A DNA stretch of 64,000 nt from Salegentibacter agarivorans (lineage in GTDB: Bacteria; Bacteroidota; Bacteroidia; Flavobacteriales; Flavobacteriaceae). The position numbers and the translations under genes were made by a program. The notes below the pieces were generated by a model. That model ran no database searches. It had not been told where the DNA came from and saw only the letters and a list, made by a program, of their open reading frames with translations. Positions 4,988 to 57,316 of this stretch are shown one piece after another. Each line of letters starts with the position of its first letter. The stretch's first letter is position 1. The stretch is from the NCBI RefSeq assembly GCF_900113135.1, contig NZ_FOOH01000004.1, forward strand, positions 62,001 to 126,000, given 5' to 3'.

Positions 4988-5014
4988 TATATGGATCCCA
5001 TATGGAACCATATG
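4988..5014 (+). promoter_or_regulatory. CATATG-type 21-bp direct repeat upstream of the ThuA-like gene
   Basis: Half-sites TATATG (4988) and CATATG (5009) are 21 bp apart, with an additional CATATG at 4999 between them, so three near-identical hexamers follow an ~10.5-bp helical period. The cluster ends 123 bp before the ThuA-like start. The same 21-bp spacing recurs upstream of six other units in the window. Confidence 0.55.
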
Positions 5015-5137
5015 TATTAAGAAAGATGTATTTTTTAAAGGAGTTTTGTTAAACCTTATAAAAATGAAAATTTAAGAGATATTTCCAATTAACGGCGACA
5101 TATAACACCCTTTAAAGACCAATAATATTAAAAGATT

Positions 5138-6244
5138 ATGAAAAATATTATTCCACCATTGCCTCTTTCCATTCTTATGGTTTTCATCATAAACCTTAGC
5201 TTTAATACAAATGAAATATATGCGGAGGTGGCCAAGCCTACCACACTACCAGATTTGGGTTTCCCCAAAGCTTTTGAGATATATAATTTTAATAGCGAAT
5301 TTCGAAGATTGACCGAGACTCAAACGTCAAAACCAATTAAACGAAAAATAAAAGTGCTTATAGTAGACGGGCAAAATAATCATGCCGCATGGCCAAAATC
5401 TACAATCATGATGAAACAATATTTGGAGGAAACCGGTTTGTTTATTGTAGACATCCTGCGCACGCAATATCTTTGGAAAGCGGATCGAGAAAAAGAATTT
5501 CTTTCTTTAGCCGGTGTGGGTGAAAAAGAAAATATGGAAAATCCAGAAGAAGATCCGGAATTTGCTCCAAAATTCCATAAATATGATGTGGTGGTTTCAA
5601 ATTTTGGATGGAAGGCCGCAGCTTGGCCTAATGAAACTCAGGCAGCATTTGAGAAATTCATAAAAAAGGGAGGTGGGTTTGTTGCCGTTCATGCTGCGAA
5701 CAACTCCTTCCCCAATTGGGAAGAATACAATAAAATGATAGGACTTGGAGGCTGGGGAGATAGGGACGAAAAAGATGGCCCTTATGTTTATTATACCGAT
5801 AACGGACAACAGGTTAGAGACATTTCTAAAGGAAAAGCGGGAGCCCACGGTCCCCAACATAGTTTTCCTATTACTATACGCGATTCTGATCATCCCATTA
5901 CGCATGGAATGCCAAAAGTATGGTTAACAGCAAAAAATGAATGCTATGCCAAATTACGTGGTCCAGCAGAAAATATGGTCATTTTAGCCACCGGAAAAGA
6001 TGTTTCAGGAAAAGCACCTACAAATCGTCATGAACCTGTTTTTATGGTTATAAATTATAGAAAAGGCCGGATTTTCAATACCATACTTGGGCACGACATT
6101 CCTTCATTTGAGGGGGTTGGTTTTATCGTTTCGTTTACCCGGGGCGTGGAATGGGCAGCTACTGGAAAGGTTACCCAAGCAATTCCCAAAGACTTCCCCA
6201 AAGCCAGTAAATCGAAAAGCAGAACATTCCACTATGAATACTAA
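5138..6244 (+). CDS. Exported ThuA-like domain protein
   Basis: A 368-residue protein with an N-terminal hydrophobic leader (residues ~8-30). It carries one ThuA-like domain (PF06283, class I glutamine amidotransferase-like fold) from ~68 to 350: the KVLIVDGQNNHAAWP strand, DVVVSNFGW, GGGFVAVHAANNSFPNW, the HPITHGMP region and GRIFNTILGHD. ThuA-like proteins are commonly encoded near DUF1080 and Gfo/Idh/MocA proteins in carbohydrate loci, both of which occur here, but their chemistry is poorly defined. The gene stands alone, with a 363-bp gap after it, and has its own regulatory repeat cluster upstream. The family call is reliable; the role in sugar handling is inferred from context only. Confidence 0.85.
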   Translation: MKNIIPPLPLSILMVFIINLSFNTNEIYAEVAKPTTLPDLGFPKAFEIYNFNSEFRRLTETQTSKPIKRKIKVLIVDGQNNHAAWPKSTIMMKQYLEETGLFIVDILRTQYLWKADREKEFLSLAGVGEKENMENPEEDPEFAPKFHKYDVVVSNFGWKAAAWPNETQAAFEKFIKKGGGFVAVHAANNSFPNWEEYNKMIGLGGWGDRDEKDGPYVYYTDNGQQVRDISKGKAGAHGPQHSFPITIRDSDHPITHGMPKVWLTAKNECYAKLRGPAENMVILATGKDVSGKAPTNRHEPVFMVINYRKGRIFNTILGHDIPSFEGVGFIVSFTRGVEWAATGKVTQAIPKDFPKASKSKSRTFHYEY

Positions 6245-6511
6245 AAAAGCTATCCTTATCGCATAGCCATGTTCAGAGATTCTTTAGGCAAATACAATCA
6301 ATACATACGTTAGTAAGATATTAATTCTTACGGAAGTGTTTTGAAATGGTGAAGTTTTTTCTGATATGCTTCGAAGATTTTTCGCGGAATTCTCTATCCT
6401 CATCTTTCCTGGATAGGACTGTATTTATATTCACGATACGTTTAAAAGTAAATTTATACTTACAATGCTATTCAAAAACTCTGAATTTGCCCTACTTCAG
6501 TTTATCTACAA

Positions 6512-6538
6512 CATATGTTTTTAATACTGCCACACTTG
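6512..6538 (+). promoter_or_regulatory. CATATG-type 21-bp direct repeat upstream of the GH2-sulfatase operon
   Basis: CATATG at 6512 and the weaker CACTTG at 6533 are 21 bp apart, ending 69 bp before the GH2 start. Eight bases GATCTTTG at 6537-6544 come within one base of the flavobacterial -7 consensus TAnnTTTG. The 6245-6607 gap holds nothing else I can support; the 69-codon open frame at 6346-6555 looks spurious. Confidence 0.45.
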
Positions 6539-6607
6539 ATCTTTGTATTTATTAGCCATCCTTTTTTAATTTATATTCACAACTACCTTTAAAATTCAAA
6601 TTCATAA

Positions 6608-9088
6608 ATGAAGTATTTTCTATTCAGTAAATCCCTCTGTTTTCTAGTCCTGAATTTCACCCTAATTTGTTCAGCACAAAAAAATAGCTCTGTCAATGAT
6701 ATAAATTTTAATAAGGATTGGCTATTTAGTAAGGGTAGCCAGCCCAGTGCGGAAAAAAAAGATTTTGATGATTCCAACTGGAGAAAACTTGATCTCCCCC
6801 ACGATTGGGCAATTGAAGGTCCATTTGATGAAAAATACAATGCCAGGACGGGAGGTTTGCCTGTACATGGTATTGGTTGGTACCGGAAAAACTTCACTAT
6901 AGCTCCCAAATATGCAGGTAAAAAAATCGCCATTGAATTTGATGGCGCCATGAACAATGCTAAGGTATGGCTAAATGGGGTTTATATTGGAGAACGACCA
7001 TTCGGTTACATAGGCTTTGAATTTGATTTAACTCCTCATATTAAATTTGGGGAGGAAAATGTAATTGCCGTACAATTGTCGCCCGAGGATCTAGCATCAC
7101 GTTGGTATTCGGGTGCGGGGATTTATCGAAATGTACGTTTAAAAATAAATAATCCTCTACACATCCCTCAATGGGGAACCTTTATTACTACCCCGGAAGT
7201 TTCCAGGGAGAGGGCAATACTTAACATTCAAACTACTATAAAAAATTCTGGAGATAGTGCAGGCAAAGTAACCCTTCAAACAAACATTCTGGATAATAAT
7301 GGTTCCACGGTTGCCTCTTCAACCAGCGAACTTAGCCTGAAATCCGGTACGGAAAAAACCGATACGCAGGAAATTGAAATTATTAAACCTCGCTTGTGGG
7401 ACCTTGATTCCCCAAACCTATACAAAGCAGTTAGTCAGGTTAAAAAAGATGGGGACATTATTGATGAATATACCAGCTCATTTGGAATTCGTACTATTTC
7501 CTTTAATTCTAACGACGGTTTTAAACTCAATGGTAAAAGGATACCCCTTAACGGTGTATGTATGCATCACGATCTAGGTCCTCTGGGTGCCGCCGTGAAT
7601 TATCGGGCAACAGAACGACAGATGCAAATTATGAAGGATATGGGAGTGAATGCTCTAAGGACAAGCCATAACCCTCCTTCTCCTGAAATGCTTGAAGTAT
7701 GCGATAAATTGGGGATTGTAGTAATAGATGAGGCATTTGATGAATGGAAAGAAGCAAAAGTCATCAATGGATATAATAAATATTTTGATGAATGGCATGA
7801 GAAAGATCTTCGTGATATGATAAAACGGGACCGTAATCATCCTTCCGTGATTATGTGGAGTATAGGAAATGAAATTCTTGAACAGTCAAAGAAAGATGGT
7901 TGGAAAATAGCAAAAATGCTGAATGACATATGTCACGATGAAGATAATACAAGACCTACCACTGCAGGTTTCAATTACTATCCTGCAGCTTTTAAAAATA
8001 AATTAGCTCATCAGGTTGACGTAGTAGGTATGAATTATAAACCCTACAATTATGCAGAGGTTAAGCAAATGTACCCGGATATGATTATTTATGGTTCTGA
8101 GACATCTTCCCAGACCAGTAGCAGGGGTGTTTACCATTTACCAATACAAGCAGATTTAAAAGAAGGTTCGAAACACGTTTCAAGTTATGATGTGGTGGTT
8201 GGGCCTCCATGGGCTTATCCTCCCGAGGTAGAATTTGATGTACAGAATGAAAATCCTTTTTTACTCGGAGAATTTATGTGGACTGGCTTTGATTATCTTG
8301 GAGAACCTACACCTTTTGGAGGCCGTGACAACTCAACAAACGGATATTGGAATGACGATTGGCCATCCCGATCTTCCTATTTTGCTCCGGTAGATCTGGC
8401 TGGATTTCCAAAAGACCGGTTTTACCTTTATCAAAGTCAATGGACCAATGAACCTATGGTTCACGTATTGCCTCACTGGAACTGGAAAGGTAAGGAAGGT
8501 CAAAACATTCCGGTATTTGCATATACCAACGCAGATGAAGTAGAATTATTTATAAATGGCAAATCCTATGGACGCAAAATAAAAGGGATTAACAAGACAG
8601 AAATCCCTGCGGAATTTAAAGGATTTGAAAAAGGAATGTATCCTTCTAGGCATAGACTTTCATGGGATGTACCATACCAGTCAGGCGCTTTAAAGGTAAT
8701 TGCCTACAAGGATGGCAATAAAGTGGCAGAAAAAGAAATTAAAACGGCCTCAAAACCAACCGGGATACACATGATTGCGGATAGAAATAATATAGCTGCT
8801 GATGGCAAGGATTTATCCTTTATAACGGTTAGGATTGAAGATGAACATGGAAATTTACATCCAATTGCAGATAATTTAGTAAAATTCCAGATTGAAGGAG
8901 ATGGCGTACTAGCAGCTGTTGGTAACGGAGACCAAACCTCTATGGCTTCATTCCAAATACCAGAAAGAAAAGCATTTAACGGTTTATGTCTTCTTATTGT
9001 TAAATCTACAGAAAAAAGTGGACGCATTAAAGTAACAGCTTCTTCTCCCGGTCTGGATCCAGAAACCATAACTGTAAGAACAGAGTAG
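6608..9088 (+). CDS. GH2-family exo-beta-galactosidase (probable)
   Basis: An 826-residue exported protein (signal peptide ending near LICSAQ). The domains are a GH2 N-terminal jelly-roll (~30-180; LPHDWAIEGPF, GWYRKNF, NNAKVWLNGVY), an Ig-like linker (~185-285), a TIM barrel (~290-580), then DUF4982-like and C-terminal Ig-like domains (~610-826). Acid/base E422 sits in WSIGNE and nucleophile E498 in YGSETSS, so the active site looks intact. GH2 proteins of this layout in agar and porphyran loci release beta-linked galactose from the non-reducing end. It is first in an operon with three sulfatases (gaps of 16, 11 and 5 bp), so trimming of galactose is probably coupled to desulfation. Galactose specificity is inference. 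Confidence 0.88.
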   Translation: MKYFLFSKSLCFLVLNFTLICSAQKNSSVNDINFNKDWLFSKGSQPSAEKKDFDDSNWRKLDLPHDWAIEGPFDEKYNARTGGLPVHGIGWYRKNFTIAPKYAGKKIAIEFDGAMNNAKVWLNGVYIGERPFGYIGFEFDLTPHIKFGEENVIAVQLSPEDLASRWYSGAGIYRNVRLKINNPLHIPQWGTFITTPEVSRERAILNIQTTIKNSGDSAGKVTLQTNILDNNGSTVASSTSELSLKSGTEKTDTQEIEIIKPRLWDLDSPNLYKAVSQVKKDGDIIDEYTSSFGIRTISFNSNDGFKLNGKRIPLNGVCMHHDLGPLGAAVNYRATERQMQIMKDMGVNALRTSHNPPSPEMLEVCDKLGIVVIDEAFDEWKEAKVINGYNKYFDEWHEKDLRDMIKRDRNHPSVIMWSIGNEILEQSKKDGWKIAKMLNDICHDEDNTRPTTAGFNYYPAAFKNKLAHQVDVVGMNYKPYNYAEVKQMYPDMIIYGSETSSQTSSRGVYHLPIQADLKEGSKHVSSYDVVVGPPWAYPPEVEFDVQNENPFLLGEFMWTGFDYLGEPTPFGGRDNSTNGYWNDDWPSRSSYFAPVDLAGFPKDRFYLYQSQWTNEPMVHVLPHWNWKGKEGQNIPVFAYTNADEVELFINGKSYGRKIKGINKTEIPAEFKGFEKGMYPSRHRLSWDVPYQSGALKVIAYKDGNKVAEKEIKTASKPTGIHMIADRNNIAADGKDLSFITVRIEDEHGNLHPIADNLVKFQIEGDGVLAAVGNGDQTSMASFQIPERKAFNGLCLLIVKSTEKSGRIKVTASSPGLDPETITVRTE

Positions 9089-9104
9089 TAAATAAAATAA
9101 TAAT

Positions 9105-10511: not shown

Positions 10512-10522
10512 TTTTATTTAGA

Positions 10523-12220: not shown

Positions 12221-12225
12221 AATTT

Positions 12226-18804: not shown

Positions 18805-18831
18805 CATATCTTCTGCTATAGTAGACATATG
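18805..18831 (+). promoter_or_regulatory. CATATG-type 21-bp direct repeat upstream of sulfatase 18884
   Basis: CATATC at 18805 and CATATG at 18826 are exactly 21 bp apart; the second half-site starts 58 bp before the sulfatase start. This is one of the two tightest-spaced examples of the element in the window. Confidence 0.55.
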
Positions 18832-18883
18832 TTTTCTTGTTTCTTAATAAAAATACAAATATTTGGTTTAAATAATAGACTGA

Positions 18884-20686: not shown

Positions 20687-20751
20687 CAGATAGGTTTTAT
20701 AAATGATTTATTCTACAAAGGCTCGTGAAAACTTAAAAGATTGACCAACCC

Positions 20752-22646: not shown

Positions 22647-22858
22647 AAAAGTAGATAAAATTTCATGTAATCTTCCCTGGGCTTCAGATTAAAAGCCTTT
22701 GAAAAAACAGATAATCATTTGTTGCCTAAAAAAAACCCTGAGTATTGTACCTAAAAGATATCAATTAAGAAATTAGCTGTAATAACCCTATTAGGATTGT
22801 ACCCAGCAGACATTTATGATAAAAATTAAATACCGGGGGGCCTATTAAATAAATCAAA

Positions 22859-25805: not shown

Positions 25806-25832
25806 CATATGTTGCTAATAAAAACTTATATG
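25806..25832 (+). promoter_or_regulatory. CATATG-type 21-bp direct repeat upstream of beta-helix gene 25883
   Basis: CATATG at 25806 and TATATG at 25827 are 21 bp apart; the second half-site starts 56 bp before the start codon. The sequence TAGCTTTA at 25858-25865 is close to the TAnnTTTG promoter consensus. Confidence 0.5.
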
Positions 25833-25882
25833 TAGCATTCCATAAAAGCATAGCCATTTAGCTTTATCAAAAAACCAATATT

Positions 25883-29893: not shown

Positions 29894-32800
29894 ATGAGAA
29901 AATTTTGGTTCCTCAAGTATAGTTTAGTTATAATAAACCTCCTTTTCACTGGTTCCCTTTTATTATTTGCTCAAGAAGCTCAAATCAGTTTTGAACGGAT
30001 AACTACAAATGACGGTTTATCGCAAAGTGATATCAATTCTATTTATCAAGATCAAGCTGGATTTATGTGGTTTGGCACTCATGATGGGCTCAATAAGTTT
30101 GATGGGTACAATATTGAGGTATACAAGCCCCAAACACAAATATCCCATTCTATAAGTAGCAATTTAGTATTCGCAATTACCGGAGATGAAAAAGGAAATC
30201 TTTGGATTGGAACTACCGGCGGAGGGTTAAATTTTTACAACAGCAATACAAAACAATTTACAACTTTTAAACATGAAGAAAATAACCCGAAAAGTTTAAT
30301 TAGCAACCATGTAAATAATGTCTTTCTGGATTCTAGAAATAAACTATGGATAGGAACTAATAAAGGCTTAAATATGCTAGATCTAAATGATCCAAAAGAG
30401 GAATGGGATTTCTTGAAAATTACTTTATCAGGAAATAATGCATCGGATAGGATACCTATCAATACGATTTTTGAAGATAACTGTGGAAACATATGGGTTG
30501 GCAAACAAAATGAGTTATTTCGCTCTAACAATCAAAAAGAAGTTTCTCCCCATTTTGCAAAGGTTAATAAGAAGCTTGGTTTACTTAACTATAACATACA
30601 AGCCATTGCAGAAGATAAATTGGGAAATTTATTTTTTGCTACCACCCAGGGTCTTTACTTTTCACGAAACAACTCAGGCCATTTAGAAAAATCGCAATTT
30701 GTTCACCCCGGTTCTTTCAACGACATCAAAGTAGACAATCAAAATCAGATTTGGGGTGGAACAGATCAGGGGTTAATATATATTGACAATAGCGGCAATT
30801 TTCCCAAATTTTCTCAAAAATTTGTTTACGATCCGATTAACATCAATAGTATAAGTAAAAACATTATAAAGTCAATTTTTATTGATAACACAGGGATAAT
30901 ATGGATTGGAACAAACGGTGGTGGAATAAACAAGTACAATCCAGCCCGTAAAAGGTTTCAACATATTAGAAAAACGATTGATACTACTAGCTTAAGCTAT
31001 GATAAAATAAGATCCATATTTGAGGATAGCAACCAAAACCTATGGATTGGGACTGAAGGCGGAGGATTAAACCTTCTTACCGAAAACGAGACGGATATCA
31101 ATCATTACTCGACCTTTAAAAAATTTAGCTCTGTATTAAAAATTTTCGTATTAACAGAACTCCAATTAAAAAATAAAAGATGGTTGATTATTGGAGCTGA
31201 AGGAACACCTGGCCTCTATAAACTAGACATCACAAATCCAAAAAAATTAAAGGAGAAAGCAATCATACCTATCCCTAATGTCCCCTCCAGTGTTTTTTCT
31301 CTTTTAACAGATAGCGGTGGCAATCTATGGATAGGTACATATAACCAAGGGGTACACCGTTGGCTGAATAAAGGTGATTCTTTACAAAAATTCGAAAAGA
31401 ACAACTTTACCTACGACTCTAATTCCCAAAACAGTATTGGTCATAATATTATAAGAAGTATATATGAAGATAGTAAAGGGAATATGTGGTTTGCGACCGG
31501 AAATGGATTATCACGTCTTTCCCCGGATCAGGTATGGAAAAAAAATCCCCGGTTCATTAATTATAGGCATAAAGACGCTGACACATCAACAATAAGCCAT
31601 AATTATATTTTAAGCCTACACGAAAGCAAACAGGGGGATATTTGGATTGGCACCTTTGGAGGAGGACTTAATAAATATGTTCCTCAATCACAGACTGGAC
31701 CGGAACATTTTGTTAGGTACACTGAAAAAGATGGCCTTTCTAATAATGTAATAAAAGGGATTCTGGAAGATTCTCTTGGAAATCTCTGGCTGTCTACAAA
31801 CAATGGTCTTTCTAAATTTGATCCGGAAAAAGAAACTTTCAGAAACTACAGTGTTTACGATGGCCTGCAAAACAATGAATTTCAGGAATTGGCATATCTA
31901 AAAAGGTATGATGGTGAAATGCTTTTCGGAGGGATAAACGGTTTCAATGCCTTTTATCCAGATGAGATTCAAGATAATCTAATTCCGCCGGAAACTGTGA
32001 TTACCAATTTTTCAATCTCAAATAATCCGGTTGAAGTAGGAGAAAAAATTAATGGCAAAACCATTTTAGAGAAATCCATCCTAAATAAAAATAAGGTAGA
32101 ATTGAAGTATTTTCAAAATAATGTTTCTTTCGAATTCGCGGCTTTACACTATGCTTCTCCTAAAAAAAACAATTTTGCATACCTGTTAGAGGGTTTGCAA
32201 GACGATTGGATCCATACCACTTCAGATAACCGTATCGCTACCTATACCAACCTTAGCCCCGGCAACTATACCTTAAAAGTGAAATCTTCAAATAACGATG
32301 GTATCTGGGACCCTACTCCTACTATGCTGAATATAGAAATCACACCTCCCTTTTGGAAAACAACTGCAGCCTATATTTTTTACAGTTTATGTATCCTTGC
32401 TTTTTTAATTGGCCTTTGGAAATATACCATCATCAGCACCACTAAAAAACATGATCTGGAAATCGAACATCTGGAGAAAGAGAAAAATGAGGAAGTGCAA
32501 CAAATGAAGCTGGATTTTTTCACCAATATATCCCACGAATTTCGCACTCCTTTAACCCTTATAAAAGGACCCCTGGAATACCTGCAACAAAAAGGAAGAG
32601 AATTAGATTATAATATTGTGGAGCACCAGTACGCTTTAATGTATAAAAACACCAAATATTTATTAAGACTGGTAACCCAATTACTGGATTTTCAAAAAAT
32701 AGATAAGGGCAAAATGCAGTTAAATCTTAGAAAAGGGAATATTGTGAGATTTATAGAAGAAGTTGGAGAACCTTTTAAATTTATCAGCGAAAAGAAAAAT

Positions 32801-34126
32801 ATCAATTATAAAATAAATGCTGAAGAAAGGAAAATCTATAGTTATTTTGACCCTGATGCCTTGGAAAAAATCCTAAACAATTTACTGTCCAACGCCTTTA
32901 AGTTCTGCCCGCAAGGAGGCTATATTATCGTTAATATAAAAAGGGAATTTTCATCCAGTAAAAAAGACCAAAATAGTAAACAGGCATCAGAAGAAATTTT
33001 AATAGAGATTACAGATTCTGGCGCTGGAATATCAGCTGCTAAAAAAGAGAGAATATTTAAAAGATTTTACTCTCAAAACAGCCCCTCTCAGGCTAATGTT
33101 GGGACAGGAATAGGCCTGAGCTATACCAAAAGTCTTGTAGATTTGCATCTGGGAACAATAGATATTGCAAACGAAAAGGATGCTAGATCGACTTTTATAG
33201 TAACCCTTCCCAAAAACAAAATAGCATACTTAAATAAACCAGGAATCAACATTAGTGAAGATTCCAGTAAAGAAATTATTTTGAATCCTTCTAATTCTTC
33301 TTCTTATTTAGTTTCTTTAAATGACGAGAAAAATGATGAAGATATTTCTAAAGACAGAGCTGAGTTCCCAGTTATTTTAGTGGTAGACGACAATAAGGAT
33401 ATACGAACTTTTATAAAGCAAAGCCTAAAAGACCAGTATAATATTCATGAAGCTCAAAATGGTAAAGAGGGATTTGAAAAGGCTAAAGCCATTGTTCCAA
33501 ACATAATTATAAGCGATCTAATTATGCCTGAAATTGATGGAATAGAATTTTGCAAAAAGTGCAAAAATATGCAAGAAACCAGCCATATCCCTTTTTTATT
33601 ATTAACGGCAAAAGACTCCAAGGAAAGTGAACTGATAGCTTTGGAAAGTGGAGCGGATGACTATCTTCTAAAACCTTTTAATTTAGAACTCCTCCAATTA
33701 AAACTTAAAAATATAATCACGCGACGAAACCTTTTAAGAAAGCGTTTCAATAGGGAAATCATATTAAAACCAGAAGATGTGACCGTAACATCAGCAGATG
33801 AAAAATTTCTGGAAGAAGCTATGGCTATTGTGGAAAAAAATATGATGAATACCGATTTTAGTGTGGAAATGATGGTAAAAGAAATGGGATTGAGCCGTAG
33901 TAACCTTTATCTCAAACTTAAAGAAATTACAGGTCTCTCTTCTAGTGAATTCATCCGGAACATCCGGTTAAAGAGGGCAGTTCAATTATTGGAACAAAGC
34001 GACCTTTCAGTAAAAGAAATCATGTATATGACAGGTTTTAACACTGCCTCCTACTTTGCAAAATGCTTTAAAAAACAATTTGGAAAAACTCCCAGTGAGT
34101 ATGTCAATAAAAATCCATCAGCTTAA
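29894..34126 (+). CDS. Hybrid two-component system (HTCS) sensor/regulator
   Basis: A 1410-residue one-protein signalling system. A signal peptide leads into periplasmic two-component-regulator propeller repeats (~30-700; recurring LWIGTxxGGLN), a Y_Y_Y domain (~740-815) and one membrane helix (~823-845). The histidine kinase follows with phospho-acceptor H881 in ISHEFRTPL, N-box NNLLSNAFKF, DSGAGIS and GTGIGLSY. A receiver domain (~1156-1270) has phospho-acceptor D1208 in IISDLIMPE, and a C-terminal AraC-type HTH spans ~1290-1405. HTCS proteins bind an oligosaccharide in the periplasm and activate PUL transcription. All catalytic residues appear intact. AraC-type domains bind half-sites about 21 bp apart, which matches the repeats found across this window. 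Confidence 0.95.
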   Translation: MRKFWFLKYSLVIINLLFTGSLLLFAQEAQISFERITTNDGLSQSDINSIYQDQAGFMWFGTHDGLNKFDGYNIEVYKPQTQISHSISSNLVFAITGDEKGNLWIGTTGGGLNFYNSNTKQFTTFKHEENNPKSLISNHVNNVFLDSRNKLWIGTNKGLNMLDLNDPKEEWDFLKITLSGNNASDRIPINTIFEDNCGNIWVGKQNELFRSNNQKEVSPHFAKVNKKLGLLNYNIQAIAEDKLGNLFFATTQGLYFSRNNSGHLEKSQFVHPGSFNDIKVDNQNQIWGGTDQGLIYIDNSGNFPKFSQKFVYDPININSISKNIIKSIFIDNTGIIWIGTNGGGINKYNPARKRFQHIRKTIDTTSLSYDKIRSIFEDSNQNLWIGTEGGGLNLLTENETDINHYSTFKKFSSVLKIFVLTELQLKNKRWLIIGAEGTPGLYKLDITNPKKLKEKAIIPIPNVPSSVFSLLTDSGGNLWIGTYNQGVHRWLNKGDSLQKFEKNNFTYDSNSQNSIGHNIIRSIYEDSKGNMWFATGNGLSRLSPDQVWKKNPRFINYRHKDADTSTISHNYILSLHESKQGDIWIGTFGGGLNKYVPQSQTGPEHFVRYTEKDGLSNNVIKGILEDSLGNLWLSTNNGLSKFDPEKETFRNYSVYDGLQNNEFQELAYLKRYDGEMLFGGINGFNAFYPDEIQDNLIPPETVITNFSISNNPVEVGEKINGKTILEKSILNKNKVELKYFQNNVSFEFAALHYASPKKNNFAYLLEGLQDDWIHTTSDNRIATYTNLSPGNYTLKVKSSNNDGIWDPTPTMLNIEITPPFWKTTAAYIFYSLCILAFLIGLWKYTIISTTKKHDLEIEHLEKEKNEEVQQMKLDFFTNISHEFRTPLTLIKGPLEYLQQKGRELDYNIVEHQYALMYKNTKYLLRLVTQLLDFQKIDKGKMQLNLRKGNIVRFIEEVGEPFKFISEKKNINYKINAEERKIYSYFDPDALEKILNNLLSNAFKFCPQGGYIIVNIKREFSSSKKDQNSKQASEEILIEITDSGAGISAAKKERIFKRFYSQNSPSQANVGTGIGLSYTKSLVDLHLGTIDIANEKDARSTFIVTLPKNKIAYLNKPGINISEDSSKEIILNPSNSSSYLVSLNDEKNDEDISKDRAEFPVILVVDDNKDIRTFIKQSLKDQYNIHEAQNGKEGFEKAKAIVPNIIISDLIMPEIDGIEFCKKCKNMQETSHIPFLLLTAKDSKESELIALESGADDYLLKPFNLELLQLKLKNIITRRNLLRKRFNREIILKPEDVTVTSADEKFLEEAMAIVEKNMMNTDFSVEMMVKEMGLSRSNLYLKLKEITGLSSSEFIRNIRLKRAVQLLEQSDLSVKEIMYMTGFNTASYFAKCFKKQFGKTPSEYVNKNPSA

Positions 34127-34306: not shown

Positions 34307-34333
34307 CATATGTTATGGTATAAAAATCATCAA
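34307..34333 (+). promoter_or_regulatory. CATATG-type direct repeat (second half-site weak) upstream of the Gfo/Idh/MocA gene
   Basis: CATATG at 34307 has only CATCAA 21 bp on, at 34328. The position (131-152 bp upstream of the start) matches the distal group of sites. The 34127-34458 gap holds nothing else recognisable. Confidence 0.4.
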
Positions 34334-40755: not shown

Positions 40756-40809
40756 AGCAAATGCAACTTATAAAAATCTTATTTGCAGCGATTAAATACT
40801 CGAAATAGA

Positions 40810-41726: not shown

Positions 41727-42048
41727 AATAAAAGATTTGAACTCAATAGGAAGAAAATTGTCTAATCGGGAAATGACTTAATTGAATAATATATTATTAA
41801 GTCTTAGGAAAGACTGTAATTTGGAAAAGCTAATAGGAAAGACTAACATATTTTGACACTCAAGATTGAATAGTTCAATTTGCTAGAAATCGGTTATACC
41901 TTCTATTTTATTCATTACTTAATGATAATAAAACTTTAGGGGTAAAATTAAATTTATCATTGATTTTTTTTCCTATATCCTAAACGGAAATATTCCAATT
42001 CTTTCAAATTTTGTTAAAATTCCTTCAAAAGCAGCACCTAACATCCTG

Positions 42049-42067
42049 TGTCTAGTTTATGTCTAGT
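42049..42067 (+). promoter_or_regulatory. Tandem TGTCTAGT direct repeat (11-bp period) upstream of SusC1
   Basis: Two identical copies of TGTCTAGT start at 42049 and 42060. The only similar pair I found is at 57325/57336, before the GH2-GH117 operon. The site is 172-190 bp before the SusC1 start. A 12-bp palindrome GTGATATATCAC (42098-42109) lies between it and the gene. The 41727-42238 region holds no gene. Confidence 0.5.
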
Positions 42068-42238
42068 GCGAATACATCACCTATTTAAAACTATTCTGTG
42101 ATATATCACTAAGTTTGACCTTCTACAATTGGGAAATTATCAAAAAAATAGTAATTGATAAGTTTTTTGTTAAAAACTAATTTTTCAAGAGTATTAGTTT
42201 AAAATTAGGAAAATATTAATATTTAATCATTAGTCAGC

Positions 42239-50204: not shown

Positions 50205-51893
50205 ATGTACAGCAATTTAAAAAGATATACGTTTAAATTCAGTTCTCTCATAAATCTAATAATTTGGAGAAAGACTCGATATGCCATTTGTTTGTTTTTC
50301 TTTATCCTTTCATATCAGGTTCTATTAGCTGCCCTCCAAGATTCTTCCAATACTTTCGATCCAGAAATTAATAACAATATTGAATTCCCCCAAAATGAAG
50401 AGCCCGATACTGCCATTACAGCATTGAATCTAGCTTACAAGATTTCTATAGACAGGGGCGACACCCTCCCAGCAATATATACTTTACTAAAAAAAGCTGA
50501 TTTTCACGGAAGTAGAGCGAACTATGGCGAAGCTTATGATAATTTTTGGGATGCTCTTTCGCTTGCTGACAAACTTTCAGAGAACACTTTAATAAAAGCT
50601 GAGATCTATCGGGAATTGGGAAGACTTTATAGTTTTTATAAAAGGGAAGAAGAGTCAGAAGCCTATTTGCTAAATTCCTTGAAATTAAAAAAACAACTCT
50701 TAAAAGAAAAAAAAATTGACTCTGCCGATCTGGTCCGGAATTTTTATGCAATAACGGCCACATACCGGGAATGGAACCAGCCTCAAAAGGCCCGGCAGTT
50801 TCTGGATAGTAGTTACACTTATTTCCATGACAAGCCTGGTCAATTACCAAAGGAGTTTTTAGCATTCGAAGAAGCATTTGTACTTTCCCAACTGGGAAAA
50901 CCTGAGGAGGCCTTAGGACTAATGAAAAAATTGCAACCATGGTTTGAAGCTAACCATCCGCATTATCTGGTCTTATTTTATACCTATTTAGGCGATATTT
51001 ATAAACAGCAGGATCAGTCCTTGCAAGGCCAAGATTATTATGAACGGGCAATCAAAACTGCAAACTACTATCAGAAACATCTGGATTTCACACCGTTAAT
51101 ATATGAAAAGCTTTCAGATGTTCAGAAAGAAATGGGAATGTATCAGAAAGCACTTAGCAGCCTTGAAATAGCCAAGGAACTGGATGCTACATTTTTTGAT
51201 AGCAGGAGCAAACGTAATCGGCCAATTTTACTAATAAAAGACGAGTTCAGGGTAGAAAAAGCAAAGCAGCAGGCAGTTATACAACAGCAAAAGCTACTCA
51301 GCTTGGAGCAAAAGAATGAGATAAGCTGGTTACAGAAATTACTGCTTCTTTTTGCCATTATCTTCCTAATTGCAATAGGCATCCTATATTTTAAAAACCT
51401 TCGCTCCAAACATATCGCAGAAAATGAATTCTTACGTAAGAAAAAAGAGCTGGAAATTGAGAAAGCAAACCAGTTGGTAGAACTCAAAAATAAAGAATTG
51501 GCCACCTCGGCATTACAGCTTGTTGAAAAAGATCAATTTGTAAAAGAACTAGAGAAACGATTCAAGGAAACCGATGATGATATAAAGTCTACGGAGGTTA
51601 AATCCATTTTCAAATCTTTATCGCATAATAATAGTCAACACTGGGAGGAATTTAAGTTAAGGTTCACTTCAATAAATGAAAAATTTTATGAAAATTTAAT
51701 TCAATCCTATCCAAACTTAAGCCAGAAAGACCAAAAGATTGCCGCTTTGGTGAAACTAAATTTTTCCAGCAAGGAAATGGCTGGTTTGTTAGGCATATCA
51801 GTACAATCTGTACACACGGCCCGATACCGGCTTCGAAAAAAAATGGGCTTAAAAAGAGATGATAACCTGGAAGAAATAATCTCAGGCTTTTAA
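50205..51893 (+). CDS. TPR-containing membrane regulator with LuxR-type HTH
   Basis: A 562-residue protein. A first hydrophobic segment (~27-45) is followed by TPR repeats (~60-350; ALNLAYKISIDRGDT, EIYRELGRLYSFYKREEESEAYL, YTYLGDIYKQQDQS). A membrane helix (~382-402; LLLLFAIIFLIAIGILYF), a coiled coil (~405-460) and a C-terminal LuxR-type HTH (~500-555; LSQKDQKIAALVKLNFSSKE, LLGISVQSVHTARYRL) complete it. The layout recalls SusR-like regulators that sense sugars in the periplasm and act on DNA in the cytoplasm. It stands between the agarase and the SusC2 operon, and the CATATG repeat starts 3 bp after its stop. It is a second candidate regulator beside the HTCS. Confidence 0.85.
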   Translation: MYSNLKRYTFKFSSLINLIIWRKTRYAICLFFFILSYQVLLAALQDSSNTFDPEINNNIEFPQNEEPDTAITALNLAYKISIDRGDTLPAIYTLLKKADFHGSRANYGEAYDNFWDALSLADKLSENTLIKAEIYRELGRLYSFYKREEESEAYLLNSLKLKKQLLKEKKIDSADLVRNFYAITATYREWNQPQKARQFLDSSYTYFHDKPGQLPKEFLAFEEAFVLSQLGKPEEALGLMKKLQPWFEANHPHYLVLFYTYLGDIYKQQDQSLQGQDYYERAIKTANYYQKHLDFTPLIYEKLSDVQKEMGMYQKALSSLEIAKELDATFFDSRSKRNRPILLIKDEFRVEKAKQQAVIQQQKLLSLEQKNEISWLQKLLLLFAIIFLIAIGILYFKNLRSKHIAENEFLRKKKELEIEKANQLVELKNKELATSALQLVEKDQFVKELEKRFKETDDDIKSTEVKSIFKSLSHNNSQHWEEFKLRFTSINEKFYENLIQSYPNLSQKDQKIAALVKLNFSSKEMAGLLGISVQSVHTARYRLRKKMGLKRDDNLEEIISGF

Positions 51894-51895
51894 AC

Positions 51896-51922
51896 CATAT
51901 GTAGTAAATAAAAAATCATATG
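51896..51922 (+). promoter_or_regulatory. CATATG 21-bp direct repeat (both half-sites exact) upstream of SusC2
   Basis: CATATG at 51896 and at 51917 are exactly 21 bp apart, 115 bp before the SusC2 start. This is the only site with two identical hexamers at the 21-bp spacing. The intervening bases are A-rich, as at the other sites. Confidence 0.6.
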
Positions 51923-52036
51923 ATTTGCAATATCCTTAATTCCAAAAGTACCTTAGAGTAAACAAACGGATATAATTTTTCATTGAAGTATTTTCAGTGA
52001 GTTTTCACTAATTAATAATCATTAAAATTAATTTAT

Positions 52037-55000
52037 ATGAAAAAAGTTTTACTTATAATCCTTTCCTTTTCTTTATTCAATTCACATCTTTTGGCGCAAG
52101 AAGCCCGTATTGAAGTGGACGGAGTAGTTACTGATCCCTCGGGGATGCCTCTTCCCGGAGTTAACGTAATTGAAAAAGGTACCTCCAACGGAGTGGTAAC
52201 CGATTTTGATGGTGAATTCTCGATTGATGTACTCCCTGGAGCTGTCCTAATATTTAGCTATCTCAGCTACGAAACCGCTGAGAGAGAGGTTGATGGGCAG
52301 ACACAATTTAATATTACTCTGGAACCTTCAGCTTCAGCATTGGAAGAAGTGGTAGTTGTGGGGTATGGAACCCAAAAAAGAACTAAAATCACCAGTGCGG
52401 TGAGTAGTGTCGATGATGATTATTTGGAGCAACAACCTACAGCTAATGTTACGCAGGCGCTCCAGGGAAGTGCTGCGGGAGTAACCACTGTTGCTTCAGT
52501 GACCCCCGGAGGCGATGCTGAGATTCGCATTCGAGGTATGGGAACTATAAATAACAATGATCCCCTATGGGTTATAGATGGTGTTTTTGGAGCTCCACCC
52601 CCACCGCCAAACCAAATAAAATCTATTGAAATATTAAAAGATGCAGCTTCTACTGCTATTTATGGTGCAAGAGGTGCAAATGGAGTAATTTTAGTGACTA
52701 CCAAAACTGGAAAAAAAAATCAACCCGCCCAGGTTGAAGTTAGTTTACGGACAGGATTTAATGCACCTTCTGCAAAATATGAATTCATGACAGATCCGCA
52801 ACTACTTGGGCAAATGTTGTGGTTAGAATATACAAATGATGGCCTTCCAACAACTAATCCTCATTACGGAAGTGGATCTGAGCCGATACTCAGTGATTAC
52901 CTTTTCCCTAATGGAGCCTCTATAGGAGATCCAAATGTTGATCCCTCTTTGTACAACCAGCAAACCTACCCCATAACGAGATCAAATTCAATTGGGACAG
53001 ATTGGTTGGAGGAGATTTATCATAACGGAATTATCCAGGATTATAGTTTTTCAGTAAATGGTGGCTCCGATCAAACCACCTATTCCTTCCAAGGTAGTTA
53101 CCTAGATGAAGAAGGAATATTAAAAAACACCTCCTTCCAAAGAGCCAGCTTACGAGCCAATATAGATTCACAATTGAATAACTGGTTGACTATCGGTGAA
53201 CGACTAGGGGTGACTGTATCCCAAGGCAATGGCTGGAGAGGAAATAACAGTCACGAAAATTTATTTAACCAGATATATAAATTGAATCCAATCCTTCCGG
53301 TTTACGATATAGCGGGAAACTATGCAGGTGGCATTGTAGGTGGTTTAGGGTTTGACGGTCCTAATCCGGTAGGGTTTCTAGATAGAAGCAGTTCAAATAG
53401 AAATCGAACTTATGATATAACAAGTAATATTTATGCCCAAATATCGCTTATTGAAGGTTTATCATTTAAAACACTTTTTGGCTACAACGCACGATTACAT
53501 GATTCTTACAACCCTTCTTTTCCAGCATGGGAAAATATAAATGGCGCACGTGGCACAACATTAGGTGAAAGAAGATCGACCAATACTACTTGGAATTGGA
53601 CCAATACTCTAAATTATCAAAAAACTTTCGCAGAAGATCATGATATAGATCTATTAGTAGGAATTGAAGCCATAGAAAGTGATTTTTCATTCATATCCGC
53701 CTCAAGACAGGAATATTTTTCTACAGATCCCGATTTCTTAGTTTTGGATGCTGGAGCCTCTAACCAATTAAATAATGGCAATGGCTCAGAATGGTCTCTG
53801 TTTTCATATTTTACCCGCCTACAATACTCCTTTATCGACCGGTATTTGTTTAACTTCACATTACGTCGAGATGGTTCATCACGATTTGGTGAAAATCATC
53901 GCTATGGGGTATTTCCGGCGGCTTCTTTGGGCTGGATCGTTTCCCAGGAAAATTTTTTAACGGATTCTAATTGGTTAAATTATCTAAAGATAAGAGGCAG
54001 CTGGGGTGAATCTGGTAATGATCAAATTGGTAACTATAATAGTTTTAGTACTTTTACATCGTCACTAGGTAATTCCTACTATGCCATTGGAGGATCCGAT
54101 AACTCAATAACCCAAGGATACCAATCTGCCTCTATAGGAAACCCAAACGCCAAATGGGAAACTACAGTTTCTACGAATATTGCTTTTGATGCTACTTTAT
54201 TTCAGGGACTGGATTTAAGTGTTGACCTTTGGCAGAAAAACACCGAGGATATGCTATTTCCTGTAGCCATTCCCCTTGTATCTGGATCGGCATCCCCGCC
54301 TTCAGTTAATATTGGATCCATGACTAATAAAGGAATAGATATAAGCCTTGGGTTTAAGGATAACTTGTTTAATGGTGAGTTGCAATATAACTTATCCGGT
54401 ACTTTTACCGCTTATAAAAACGAAGTAACTAAACTTTCGAACAATGAAAATGAATTCATTCAAGGTTTTCCTGTTCGCCAACAAGTTTACACAAGAACTG
54501 AGGTAGGACGTGCTTTCCCGGAATATTATGGTTATATCGTGGATGGGATATTTCAAACCCAAGAAGAAGCAGAGGCGCATCCCACAAACGGAACGTATAA
54601 TGAACCGGGAAATTTAAAGATAAGAGATGTAAATGAAGATGGGGTTATAAGTCCCGAAGACCGCACCTATATAGGTAGCCCTCACCCCGATTTCACAACT
54701 GGTTTGAGAATGGGTCTGCAATTTAAAAATTTCGATTTCGCTGCTACTTTTTATGCAAGTGTAGGGAATGACATCGCAAATTATACCAATAGATTCATCC
54801 GTTATGGTGCATTCTCAGGTCCAAATAGTCCCGATAGATTATTTAGATCATGGGGAAGTCCCTATTTACAAAATAATAATGATGCCATTTTTCCCAAAGC
54901 CTCAAGTAGTACTTCGTTTGAACAAAATGCATCCACTGAATATATAGAGGATGGTTCATATTTACGTTTACAGAACCTGCAGCTTGGCTATAACATTCCA

Positions 55001-55210
55001 ACGAATTTGATTTCCTCCTTTAACATTAATGAATTACGCATCTATGCTTTAGCTGCAAATCTCTTTACCATAACAAACTATTCAGGGTTAGATCCTGAAA
55101 TATCAGCCAAACGTGATGGAGGGGTGGCACAGGAAATAGACCGTGGAGTTGACGTGGGAACATGGCCAGTATCTAAGCAATTTATGTTTGGTCTAAACAT
55201 TTCATTTTAA
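52037..55210 (+). CDS. SusC-like TonB-dependent outer-membrane transporter (SusC2)
   Basis: A 1057-residue outer-membrane protein with a leader (to ~HLLAQE). The carboxypeptidase-D-like regulatory domain (~25-108; DGVVTDPSGMPLPGVNVI) precedes the SusC signature EEVVVVGYGTQKRTKITSA. The plug contains VIDGVFGAPPPPPNQIKSIE and DAASTAIYGARGANGVILVTTK, and the barrel ends in GLNISF. The plug loop has a proline-rich insertion absent from SusC1, and the barrels differ widely, so the two transporters probably take different oligosaccharides, for example sulfated against neutral ones. SusD2 follows after 16 bp. The exact CATATG repeat lies upstream, whereas SusC1 lacks it, so the two are probably under different control. 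Confidence 0.96.
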   Translation: MKKVLLIILSFSLFNSHLLAQEARIEVDGVVTDPSGMPLPGVNVIEKGTSNGVVTDFDGEFSIDVLPGAVLIFSYLSYETAEREVDGQTQFNITLEPSASALEEVVVVGYGTQKRTKITSAVSSVDDDYLEQQPTANVTQALQGSAAGVTTVASVTPGGDAEIRIRGMGTINNNDPLWVIDGVFGAPPPPPNQIKSIEILKDAASTAIYGARGANGVILVTTKTGKKNQPAQVEVSLRTGFNAPSAKYEFMTDPQLLGQMLWLEYTNDGLPTTNPHYGSGSEPILSDYLFPNGASIGDPNVDPSLYNQQTYPITRSNSIGTDWLEEIYHNGIIQDYSFSVNGGSDQTTYSFQGSYLDEEGILKNTSFQRASLRANIDSQLNNWLTIGERLGVTVSQGNGWRGNNSHENLFNQIYKLNPILPVYDIAGNYAGGIVGGLGFDGPNPVGFLDRSSSNRNRTYDITSNIYAQISLIEGLSFKTLFGYNARLHDSYNPSFPAWENINGARGTTLGERRSTNTTWNWTNTLNYQKTFAEDHDIDLLVGIEAIESDFSFISASRQEYFSTDPDFLVLDAGASNQLNNGNGSEWSLFSYFTRLQYSFIDRYLFNFTLRRDGSSRFGENHRYGVFPAASLGWIVSQENFLTDSNWLNYLKIRGSWGESGNDQIGNYNSFSTFTSSLGNSYYAIGGSDNSITQGYQSASIGNPNAKWETTVSTNIAFDATLFQGLDLSVDLWQKNTEDMLFPVAIPLVSGSASPPSVNIGSMTNKGIDISLGFKDNLFNGELQYNLSGTFTAYKNEVTKLSNNENEFIQGFPVRQQVYTRTEVGRAFPEYYGYIVDGIFQTQEEAEAHPTNGTYNEPGNLKIRDVNEDGVISPEDRTYIGSPHPDFTTGLRMGLQFKNFDFAATFYASVGNDIANYTNRFIRYGAFSGPNSPDRLFRSWGSPYLQNNNDAIFPKASSSTSFEQNASTEYIEDGSYLRLQNLQLGYNIPTNLISSFNINELRIYALAANLFTITNYSGLDPEISAKRDGGVAQEIDRGVDVGTWPVSKQFMFGLNISF

Positions 55211-55226
55211 CCTTAAAAAATTAATT

Positions 55227-56981
55227 ATGAAAGATTTTATAAAAAAACTAGGTTTCGTTACTTGCATATTGTTGATGATGAATGCATGCGATAAGGATTT
55301 TCTTGAAAAAAATCCGAAAGGAACAGTTAATGAAAACAATTTAGTTAATGAGGATGGAATAAAAGCGCTGCTTATAGCTACTTATGCAGTTCTTGATGGA
55401 TATGTGAGTGGTGAAAATCCTAGTGGTAATCAGGGAGAAGCCTCTGGTATAAATTGGGTATGGGGTGATGTGCCTTCCGATGATATACACCGCGGTGATC
55501 ACCCTGGCGGTTGGACTCAAATAAACGATATTGAAAGATATGAAGTTAGACCGGATAATGAATGGTTGACTGGTGCCTGGGGAGTAAATTATGAAGGTGT
55601 ATCTCGTGCCAATGATGTATTGAAGGCGCTAGAAAATGCAGGTGAAACCTTGCCAACAGAAAAAGCAAAACAAATAGAAGCAGAAGCCAAGTTTTTAAGG
55701 GCGTGGTATCATTTTCAGTTGAGAATTAAATTTGAGAAAATACCTTATATCACTGAAAATGTAGATCCTCTTACTGTGTCTAATGATCGTGAAGTTTGGG
55801 ATGAAATTGAAGCAGATCTTCAATACTCCATTACCAATTTGAATCCCGCCCCTGATGAATTAGGTAGAGCATCGAAATGGGCCGCTAAAGCATTTATGGC
55901 AAGAGTACACTTGTTCCAAAATGAATTCACTGAAGCTAAACCATTATTAGATGATATTATCAATAATGGTCCGTTTCAATTAGAATCGCACTTTTATAAT
56001 AATTTTGATGAAGAACACCAGAATAATGGTGAGAGCATCTTTGAAATTCAGTATTCCGTAAACGATGGTGCCGGTGTAGATAATTCGGGTATAGACCATC
56101 AAACTCTATATCCCAGAGGACCAGATGTCGGCCTTTGCTGTGCTTACAGTGCCCCTACCTTTGATTTGTTTAATGCTTTCAAGGTTAATGAGGAAGGTCT
56201 TCCTATGCTAGATAATTTTCGAGACAACCTACTTCTGGAAGACTATGGAATCTTAGATACAGAGAATTTTACGCCAACCGATCATTACTTAGATCCTCGG
56301 GTAGATTGGACTATAGGAAGACGAGGTATCCCCTTTTTAGACTGGGGGCCTATGAGTGGTAGTGACTGGATGCAAGATCAATTAAATATGGGGCCTTTCC
56401 TGAATAAAAAAATCATGTTCTATAAAGAAAATTTGGGTGAAATTTCAACCCAATCTAGTTATTGGGCTTCAGGTGTCAATGGAAATAATTTTCGGGTACT
56501 AAGACTAGGTCATGTACTGATGTGGAGAGCAGAAGTTGCTGTGGAAGAAAACGATTTAGCTACTGCTCTTTCTTTAGTGAATCAAATCCGTCAGAGAGCT
56601 GCAGATGATGTTGTGATGGGTAAGGTTACCAATACTAAGTTTGGTTCTGATGATCAAATAGAAGTTGATCCAACAAAACCTGCTGCCAATTACAAATTAA
56701 GCTTATATCCATCGTTCCCTAGTCAGGAATATGCGAGAAAAGCGGTGCGGTTCGAGATGCGTCTCGAATTTGCACTTGAAGGAATGCGATTTTATGATCT
56801 GGTCCGTTGGGGGACTGCTGAGTCAACATTAAATACTTATTTAAGTAAAGAACTTGAAAATGGAAGATTACCATGGCTAAATGGTGCGGTTTTTAATGCC
56901 GAACAAGATGACCATTGGCCAATTCCTCAAGTACAAATTGATTTACAAAATGGGGTATTAACACAAGATCCGGCTTATTAG
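55227..56981 (+). CDS. SusD/RagB-like surface glycan-binding lipoprotein (SusD2)
   Basis: A 584-residue lipoprotein (lipobox MNAC21 followed by DKDF). SusD features are ALLIATYAVLDGYV, QIEAEAKFLRAWYHFQLRIKFEKIPY, RASKWAAKAFMARVHLFQNEF, and the C-terminal NFRVLRLGHVLMWRAEVAVEE, RFEMRLEFALEGMRFYDLVRWG and WPIPQVQIDLQNGVLTQ blocks. It pairs with SusC2. It resembles SusD1 only in the common family framework, consistent with a different ligand. It ends the operon; an inverted repeat follows 49 bp later. Confidence 0.95.
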   Translation: MKDFIKKLGFVTCILLMMNACDKDFLEKNPKGTVNENNLVNEDGIKALLIATYAVLDGYVSGENPSGNQGEASGINWVWGDVPSDDIHRGDHPGGWTQINDIERYEVRPDNEWLTGAWGVNYEGVSRANDVLKALENAGETLPTEKAKQIEAEAKFLRAWYHFQLRIKFEKIPYITENVDPLTVSNDREVWDEIEADLQYSITNLNPAPDELGRASKWAAKAFMARVHLFQNEFTEAKPLLDDIINNGPFQLESHFYNNFDEEHQNNGESIFEIQYSVNDGAGVDNSGIDHQTLYPRGPDVGLCCAYSAPTFDLFNAFKVNEEGLPMLDNFRDNLLLEDYGILDTENFTPTDHYLDPRVDWTIGRRGIPFLDWGPMSGSDWMQDQLNMGPFLNKKIMFYKENLGEISTQSSYWASGVNGNNFRVLRLGHVLMWRAEVAVEENDLATALSLVNQIRQRAADDVVMGKVTNTKFGSDDQIEVDPTKPAANYKLSLYPSFPSQEYARKAVRFEMRLEFALEGMRFYDLVRWGTAESTLNTYLSKELENGRLPWLNGAVFNAEQDDHWPIPQVQIDLQNGVLTQDPAY

Positions 56982-57029
56982 GTTGAACATATTTCTAATC
57001 CCTGTATAGATGACCTTTTTTTCAGATTT

Positions 57030-57078
57030 ACAGCCTTATATGAACTTTGTAGATAATCTTGGTGAATGATAAGGCTGT
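57030..57078 (+). terminator. Perfect 10-bp inverted repeat after SusD2
   Basis: ACAGCCTTAT (57030-57039) and ATAAGGCTGT (57069-57078) flank a 29-nt loop, 49 bp after the SusD2 stop. It could end or protect the SusCD2 transcript. The remainder of 56982-57454 holds only the two regulatory repeats listed separately. Confidence 0.4.
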
Positions 57079-57289
57079 TCATTTGGGAATTGCATTCCTC
57101 TGAATTTAGAAATGATATTAGCTAATTAAAACAAGCGTGTGATGATAAATATGATGTCTACTTTTCTTTTTACTGTTCTTTTAGTATCACAAGTATTTAG
57201 AAATCCATAGATATTCTCTCACTGCCGCTTCAAAAAAACGGATTCATAAGAGATAATAATCTGCCGTTAACAATCTCAGATATTTGAAC

Positions 57290-57316
57290 CATATGTTATC
57301 CTTTTTTAATCATAAA
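57290..57316 (+). promoter_or_regulatory. CATATG-type 21-bp direct repeat upstream of the GH2-GH117 operon
   Basis: CATATG at 57290 and CATAAA at 57311 are 21 bp apart, 139-165 bp before the GH2 start. It is followed within nine bases by the TGTCTAGT tandem, so the two elements form a composite promoter. Confidence 0.5.

Follow-up and report, generated by a model that had tools for sequence, protein, structure and literature searches.

CATATG-like direct repeats with 21-bp spacing as probable operators of an HTCS regulator in Salegentibacter agarivorans

Introduction

In Bacteroides thetaiotaomicron, the operators predicted for HTCS regulators of the AraC type lie upstream of PUL operons and consist of two conserved sites in direct repeat at a mean distance of 21 bp; where paralogues resemble each other in their DNA-binding domains, their motifs are alike as well (Ravcheev et al. 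2013, PMC3878776). The direct repeats associated with the SusR-like regulators of Bacteroides have a spacing of 67 or 77 bp (PMC3878776). HTCS motifs in the form of 21-bp direct repeats have thus already been published for Bacteroides (PMC3878776); what the present analysis adds is the phasing of the repeat to the promoter and the occurrence of similar operators in the vicinity of further HTCS. In the open-access literature searched, no HTCS operator from Flavobacteriaceae was found in print. In Escherichia coli, AraC at araI1-I2 occupies a tandem pair of half-sites with a 21-bp spacing, of which the downstream half-site directly adjoins the promoter.

The locus described here lies in a window of 64,000 nucleotides of S. 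agarivorans (contig NZ_FOOH01000004.1, positions 62,001 to 126,000). It shares with araI1-I2 the AraC-type, here predicted, activator, the 21-bp tandem half-sites and the downstream half-site next to the promoter. It differs in that the DNA-binding domain and a membrane sensor kinase form one chain, unlike in E. coli AraC, and in that the promoter, unlike that of araI, carries a Bacteroidetes -7 box. As for the HTCS operators of B. thetaiotaomicron, a 21-bp direct repeat upstream of a PUL is found together with an AraC-type HTCS (PMC3878776), but the host belongs to another bacterial family, Flavobacteriaceae. The core of the repeat is CATATG here, and B. thetaiotaomicron was compared through the text of that paper without its logos, so that a similar core is possible there; the distance of 26 bp between repeat and -7 box found here is not mentioned for its HTCS operators in the parts of the paper used (PMC3878776). 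SusR-like operators are likewise direct repeats upstream of glycan operons, but such an operator was rejected for this locus, since the spacing was 21 bp (7-59 scanned) instead of 67 or 77 (PMC3878776).

Results

Seven pairs of CATATG-like hexamers with a 21-bp offset, all on the forward strand, were found where the original prediction had placed them, and their second half-sites lie 56-144 bp ahead of a gene start, as it had said. Both halves are exact only in CATATG-N15-CATATG at 51896..51922, before SusC2/SusD2 (52037-56981). The other three pairs that had been regarded as non-degenerate have one mismatch each: TATATG-N15-CATATG at 4988..5014 before the ThuA gene (5138), with an extra CATATG at 4999; CATATC-N15-CATATG at 18805..18831 before two sulfatase genes (18884-22614); and CATATG-N15-TATATG at 25806..25832 before the gene of a beta-helix protein (25883). 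The second half-site is indeed degenerate in the remaining three, with two mismatches in CATATG-N15-CACTTG (6512..6538, before a GH2 and three sulfatase genes, 6608-13524), three in CATATG-N15-CATCAA (34307..34333, before the Gfo/Idh gene at 34459) and two in CATATG-N15-CATAAA (57290..57316, before the GH2 gene at 57455 and the genes after it). Throughout, noncoding DNA was defined by a plain ORF caller (at least 90 aa) and not by curated genes.

Two statements about absence had to be amended. Coding DNA was said to hold no 21-bp partner, and one coding pair with two mismatches was found at 12946. No pair was said to precede SusC1, GH3, GH29 or the HTCS gene itself. In a matrix scan of 164 kb of the contig, SusC1, GH3 and the HTCS gene had no upstream site above the coding maximum, but a weak candidate at 22716..22742 (forward strand) precedes GH29 (22859), scoring 13.0 bits, whereas no coding position exceeds 9.8. 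When the matrix was built from 15 sites of related genomes (see below), 21 noncoding matches in the 164 kb scored above the best coding match; they represent 14 distinct sites, including all seven pairs described above. Six further sites lie upstream of the window, and the series spans about 98 kb, from window position -40838 to 57316, its first member lying about 41 kb before the window starts. The sites precede PUL operons near the HTCS gene.

With at most one mismatch in total, the window holds four pairs at spacing 21, all noncoding, and at most one pair at each other spacing from 7 to 59. As raw direct-repeat counts by spacing were drowned by A/T runs, a normalised scan of hexamers and spacings was used instead. 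Over 9272 intergenic bp, taken from the window and the 17 kb preceding it, CATATG at spacing 21 ranked first of 4096 hexamers at 36 spacings, with 6 pairs observed and 0.158 expected (raw P 1.9e-8; corrected P about 0.003 for 147,456 tests), and 12 dinucleotide shuffles gave no P below 7e-6. No Rfam family and no tRNA was detected in the window. The genome-wide motif search proposed with the original prediction yielded 10 pairs with at most one mismatch in 4.3 Mb. Six of them are intergenic and are confined to one stretch of 65.5 kb on this contig (C34:48387-113922), while the other four lie outside it, all within ORFs; the binomial P for this clustering is 2.5e-9, with the span set by the hits themselves. 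At up to two mismatches, at least 158 places matched, compared with at least 104 for the reversed pattern. Without further features, the looser pair therefore lacks specificity.

Related genomes, where a search had likewise been proposed, were represented by 20 neighbourhoods of orthologous HTCS (51-57% identical; 788 kb, 18 other genomes, 14 genera), drawn from a list of 31 loci with more than 50% identity, the own locus excluded and at most two candidates per genome scored. The control set comprised 10 neighbourhoods of non-orthologous HTCS (35-39% identical; 380 kb). Around the orthologues, CATATG pairs at spacing 21 occurred 15 times in noncoding and twice in coding DNA, with 0-2 noncoding pairs at other spacings between 10 and 45; the 15 noncoding pairs fall in 10 of the 20 loci, and four of them stem from one genome. 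The controls contained no noncoding and two coding pairs. In the scan of hexamers and spacings applied to the relatives' intergenic DNA, the pair was seen 15 times with 0.53 expected (P 3e-17). Hexamers of a 7-bp repeat (TCAGTGT-like; spacings 14, 21, 28, 35 and 42) outranked it there; this repeat was taken for a tandem array and set aside.

The reciprocal search, with a matrix from the seven sites of the window, gave 22 noncoding matches in 12 of the 20 loci and no coding match in the relatives at 18 bits or more, and neither kind in the controls. At 14 bits or more, sites were present in 17 of the 20 orthologue loci and absent from three, at 36 noncoding and 17 coding matches, and the 10 control neighbourhoods had no noncoding match even at 12 bits or more. 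The DNA-binding domains were 69-86% identical to that of the window's HTCS in 20 orthologues, each from a different genome and two lacking a fetched neighbourhood, compared with 39-50% in nine of the 10 controls. Judged by these alignments and scans, the motif is conserved in other genomes alongside the DNA-binding domain of the HTCS.

The position of the promoter was analyzed for 38 sites, some of which are overlapping registers of one array; the own sites at -13742, -37388 and -40817 (three of 14) were left out, as were nine of the relatives' 36 sites at 14 bits or more, with the nearest gene more than 300 bp away or too short a sequence. The sigma-A -7 box TAnnTTTG started exactly 26 bp after the second half-site with at most one mismatch at 16 of the 38 sites and with at most two at 27, compared with no more than three of 38 at any other offset. 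On the forward strand of the window, boxes with one mismatch are predicted 26 bp after the operators at 4988 (5041..5048), 18805 (18858..18865), 25806 (25859..25866) and 51896 (51949..51956), and no box with at most one mismatch occurs at this offset after those at 6512, 34307 and 57290. Repeats before -7 boxes that were counted irrespective of their sequence peaked at 21 bp in the orthologue neighbourhoods (53 at 7 or more of 11 matches versus 7-25 elsewhere). There was no peak at 21 in the 10 control neighbourhoods (12 versus 4-12 elsewhere), and the test therefore yields no rule for all HTCS.

The HTCS is encoded at 29894..34126 on the forward strand. Its single chain carries a propeller (Reg_prop, Y_Y_Y), HisKA, HATPase_c, a receiver and an AraC-type HTH_18, and has every HTCS element: propeller sensor, Y_Y_Y, HisKA, HATPase, receiver and AraC HTH. 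The closest solved structure is 12aw, an HTCS protein (E 1.2e-58). S/CHIP-DK residues form an inhibitory contact between receiver and HTH in HTCS (PMC11253607), and SHIP was read by eye in this receiver. Two other HTCS-like genes of the genome differ in their HTH sequences, and nothing above 9.6 bits was found in the surrounding 65 kb. Originally, the repeats had been interpreted as half-sites of the AraC type, probably bound by the HTCS at 29894; co-occurrence with orthologues, reciprocal matrices, conserved DNA-binding domains, the fixed distance to the -7 box and the lack of noncoding sites around the same-genome HTCS-like genes and the 10 non-orthologous HTCS all agree with this interpretation.

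Discussion

What was observed is the presence and enrichment of the repeats, their recurrence alongside this HTCS group and a preferred spacing to the -7 box. The repeats are best read, with a probability of about 88%, as predicted operators of the HTCS encoded at 29894, which would activate promoters in the geometry described; most likely, the shared operator lets one membrane sensor protein turn on a set of sugar-digesting genes. The propeller would sense a breakdown product of the glycan of the locus, and the histidine kinase would then phosphorylate the receiver, releasing the AraC-type domains. Two such domains may then occupy neighbouring half-sites (about AACATATGTT) with a 21-bp spacing, the downstream half-site being placed just before the promoter, 26 bp ahead of the -7 box. 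An HTCS bound at that distance could contact RNA polymerase, and the operon would be activated.

CATATG is itself palindromic, so that it is weak flanks and the promoter phasing that speak for a direct repeat. Several observations run counter to an HTCS operator. The second half-site is poor in three of the window's seven sites, which also lack a -7 box with at most one mismatch at offset 26. Strict pairs occur in just 10 of the 20 orthologue loci, and even at 14 bits three loci are without a site, while coding matches become frequent (17 beside 36 noncoding). SusC1, GH3 and the HTCS gene have no upstream site above the coding maximum.

The degenerate pairs and the abundance of two-mismatch pairs across the genome (at least 158 places) would also be expected if palindromic AT-rich hexamers met by chance in AT-rich intergenic DNA, but chance has next to no probability given the first rank among 147,456 combinations, the clustering of strict pairs in the genome, their recurrence near orthologues in other genera and the preferred offset of the -7 box. 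Another binder in the window would be the TPR protein with a membrane segment and a LuxR-like C-terminus (both by eye) encoded at 50205..51893 on the forward strand, which the original prediction had offered as alternative. Of the 32 genes of the window that were scanned, it alone resembles a regulator apart from the HTCS gene, and it adjoins the only exact site (51896). However, a homologue occurs in two of the 20 orthologue neighbourhoods (about 20 kb on each side) versus sites of at least 14 bits in 17, and LuxR-type proteins are not known to act at 21-bp direct repeats, which makes it an improbable general binder.

That the sites belong to a global factor of the Crp type, which binds palindromes, is just as improbable, although every half-site is palindromic and AACATATGTT is similar to the arms of the Crp-like motif of Bacteroides, wwwTATGTTnTAnAACATAwww, having TATGTT and AACATA in common with it (PMC3878776). 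Facing arms are 11 bp apart in the site consensus versus 4 in that motif (PMC3878776), the near-perfect intergenic pairs of the genome all fall within the one 65.5-kb stretch, and the repeats track one HTCS group and not the controls.

Operators of the kind assigned here to the HTCS at 29894 were also found near non-orthologous HTCS when a strict architecture pattern, framed after the relatives' sites were known, was searched; it matched 34 places (32 of them examined), two of those sites among them, and none with at most one mismatch in the window's own genome. Thus, the motif alone names no single regulator. A conserved GFNxxSYF in the second HTH was present in seven of the nine non-orthologous HTCS near such places; as the sole cause of the motif it was rejected, since control L044 has GFNxxSYF without sites. 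It is conceivable, although rather doubtful, that the grammar CATATGT-N14-CATATGT-N25-TAnnTTTG, with half-sites like CATATGTnnTAT, serves several HTCS subfamilies with different sensors family-wide.

For one glycan locus, the regulator, its likely operator and the promoter geometry are tied together, and the spacings of 21 bp within the repeat and 26 bp to the -7 box provide a rule for reading from sequence the operons under this HTCS group. Crosstalk between HTCS with similar operators becomes directly testable. If the wider grammar holds true, one operator code could be common to PULs that target different glycans, which might lead to cross-regulation or make new operons easy to recruit.

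Enrichment of CATATG Pairs Spaced by 21 bp

Seven pairs of CATATG-like hexamers (half-sites) offset by 21 bp had been predicted as a shared operator, at window positions 4988, 6512, 18805, 25806, 34307, 51896 and 57290. Inspection of the sequence confirmed all seven, with correct offset and gene distances. Within the window, four pairs with ≤1 mismatch occurred at spacing 21, all noncoding, i.e., outside the ORFs of ≥90 aa retained by a simple script, while each other spacing from 7 to 59 yielded at most one. In an unbiased scan, in which no hexamer or spacing was preferred, CATATG at spacing 21 ranked first among 147,456 hexamer-spacing combinations; the top eight also included ATATGT, ACATAT, ACCATA and ATCATA, all at spacing 21. 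The original prediction had proposed a genome-wide motif search; in such a search, pairs with ≤1 mismatch occurred at ten places in 4,298,571 bases, of which six were intergenic, exclusively on the window's contig (C34, 48387 to 113922), and four lay elsewhere, each within an ORF of 247–536 codons. With two mismatches allowed, at least 158 places matched as compared to at least 104 for the reversed pattern, and loose pairs therefore carry little meaning by themselves.

Preferred Distance to the −7 Box

In flavobacteria, the −7 box of sigma-A promoters reads TAnnTTTG and spans positions −12 to −5 (PMC9723704). This box was sought in 38 sites, each oriented to the nearest gene, at offsets 0 to 59 from the second hexamer. 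A box with ≤1 mismatch started 26 bp past the second hexamer in 16 of the 38 sites, and in 27 with ≤2 mismatches; the other offsets from 0 to 59 reached at most 3 sites. With both orientations considered, the box was found at offset 26 in 16/45 windows, as compared to a maximum of 6 at any position in 500 shuffles. Since sites were selected using bases no more than 3 past the hexamer, the box offset is independent of site choice. With this offset, the two half-sites fall near −65 to −60 and −44 to −39, an arrangement similar to that of AraC I1-I2. Four window sites (4988, 18805, 25806 and 51896) had a box with one mismatch. The three sites with a degenerate second half-site lacked a ≤1-mismatch box at offset 26 and are less certain than the other four.

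Extent of the Predicted Regulon

Both strands of a 164-kb part of the contig were scanned with a matrix derived from 15 sites of other genera only. Twenty-one noncoding rows (14 distinct sites, including all seven predicted ones) outscored the best coding position (9.8 bits), and the first and last sites were about 98 kb apart. The predicted regulon exceeds the window, and the operator series carries on in the upstream DNA (L016–L018, C34:21162-49589). Upstream of the window (negative coordinates), two sites 129 bp apart (−13742 and −13613) precede a minus-strand SusC gene and one (−12437) a divergent SusC gene; overlapping sites at −40838 and −40817 form three half-sites in 21-bp steps ahead of a 512-aa ORF, before −40674, and a site at −37388 lies 30 bp ahead of a lacZ-like GH2 gene. 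The claim that no pair precedes SusC1, GH29, GH3 or the HTCS gene held for SusC1, GH3 and HTCS, with no preceding site above the coding maximum in the 164 kb, and failed for GH29, which is preceded by a weak site at 22716. Promoters with three half-sites in 21-bp steps were also observed in relatives (L087:19541-19588 and L084:281-328), which suggests that more than one dimer could stack.

The scan of window genes covered 32, among them GH2, GH16, GH29, GH43, GH3, five sulfatases, a sulfatase-modifying enzyme, two SusC/SusD pairs and one HTCS. Upstream are two further SusC/SusD pairs, a sulfatase and a GH29, and farther upstream a sulfatase, a lacZ-like GH2 and a GH3; an aldehyde dehydrogenase, a mandelate-racemase-type enzyme, an aldose epimerase and transporters follow downstream. 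Judged from these families, the substrate is probably a sulfated algal polysaccharide. For GH16 (3687-4658), either TTG at 4658 or ATG at 4553 could be the start codon, and a weak operator-like pair at 4722 scored under the coding maximum. The roughly 1.5 kb ahead of SusC1 (40756-42238) contains short ORFs only (≤84 aa, all those listed on the minus strand). The matrix scan found no operator there, and SusC1 may be controlled in another way.

The HTCS as Predicted Binder

Neighbourhoods of HTCS orthologues (51–57% full-length identity to the window HTCS; 20 loci, 18 genomes, 14 genera, 788 kb) were compared with those of 10 non-orthologous controls (35–39%; 380 kb). At spacing 21, the orthologue set contained 15 noncoding and 2 coding pairs, and the controls 0 and 2; each other spacing from 10 to 45 gave 0–2 noncoding pairs in the orthologue set. 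The 15 pairs were spread over 10 of the 20 loci, four coming from one genome. In the reciprocal test, with a matrix from the seven predicted sites, the orthologue set yielded 22 noncoding and no coding positions at ≥18 bits (12/20 loci; controls none), 36 and 17 at ≥14 bits (17/20 loci; controls 0 and 6), and 66 and 81 at ≥10 bits (controls 5 and 43). Many of the relatives' sites at ≥14 bits precede SusC, GH29, GH2, GH16 or sulfatase genes that are related to genes of this locus. The intergenic DNA of the relatives' stretches (L051–L090) also contained hexamers of a TCAGTGT-like tandem repeat with a 7-bp unit.

The HTCS encoded at 29894 is, on sequence grounds, the predicted binder of the pairs (probability about 0.88). 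Its DNA-binding domain is 69–86% identical to those of the 20 orthologues and 39–50% to those of nine controls, and conservation among the orthologues is strong in the stretches that we take, from the AraC fold, to be the two recognition helices. The TPR-LuxR protein encoded at 50205, the other candidate regulator, has a homologue in 2 of the 20 orthologue neighbourhoods. The genome carries two further HTCS-like genes, long frames ending in HTH_18 with different HTH sequences; no position within 65 kb around these two genes exceeded 9.6 bits in the matrix scan.

Occurrence in the Family and Relation to Known Operators

Among 249 genomes of the bacterial family, 27 contained the strict pattern CANATGT-N14-CANATGT-N25-TANNTTTG (≤1 mismatch), at 34 places in all, and none contained it read backwards. 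The strict pattern was present in 11 of 21 genomes with an HTCS orthologue (own genome counted) as compared to 16 of 228 others (Fisher P 5e-7); the window's own genome had no match. Thirty of 32 examined places were noncoding. Within the 10 kb fetched to each side, 11 of these 30 had an HTCS gene, in 8 cases ≤200 bp away, and 19 had none. Two of the 11 HTCS belong to the orthologue group (domains 78–80% identical) and nine fall outside it (43–51%). In these nine, the first HTH is divergent, and GFNxxSYF of the second HTH is kept in seven; since one control without sites also has GFNxxSYF, reading of CATATG by the second HTH is only a guess. By eye, the half-site near the nine is often CATATGTnnTAT-like.

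Predicted HTCS motifs of Bacteroides thetaiotaomicron are direct repeats that lie 21 bp apart on average, a spacing that the authors consider suggestive of dimers whose monomers sit two helix turns from one another (PMC3878776). PUL promoter binding by HTCS receiver-HTH proteins depends on phosphorylation (PMC11253607), and ChIP-seq revealed HTCS binding near their own regulated genes (PMC3404733). A carrageenan locus of Zobellia has a one-component activator of the AraC family (PMC5698469), and in a Vibrio xylan locus AT-rich direct repeats accompany a regulator of the AraC type (PMC12125979). The kind of operator is thus already known. In searches of an open-access library, neither a CATATG operator nor a fixed −7 box offset was found for HTCS. 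The observation is real and explained as an operator of a known kind, to which the precise promoter rule is an addition.
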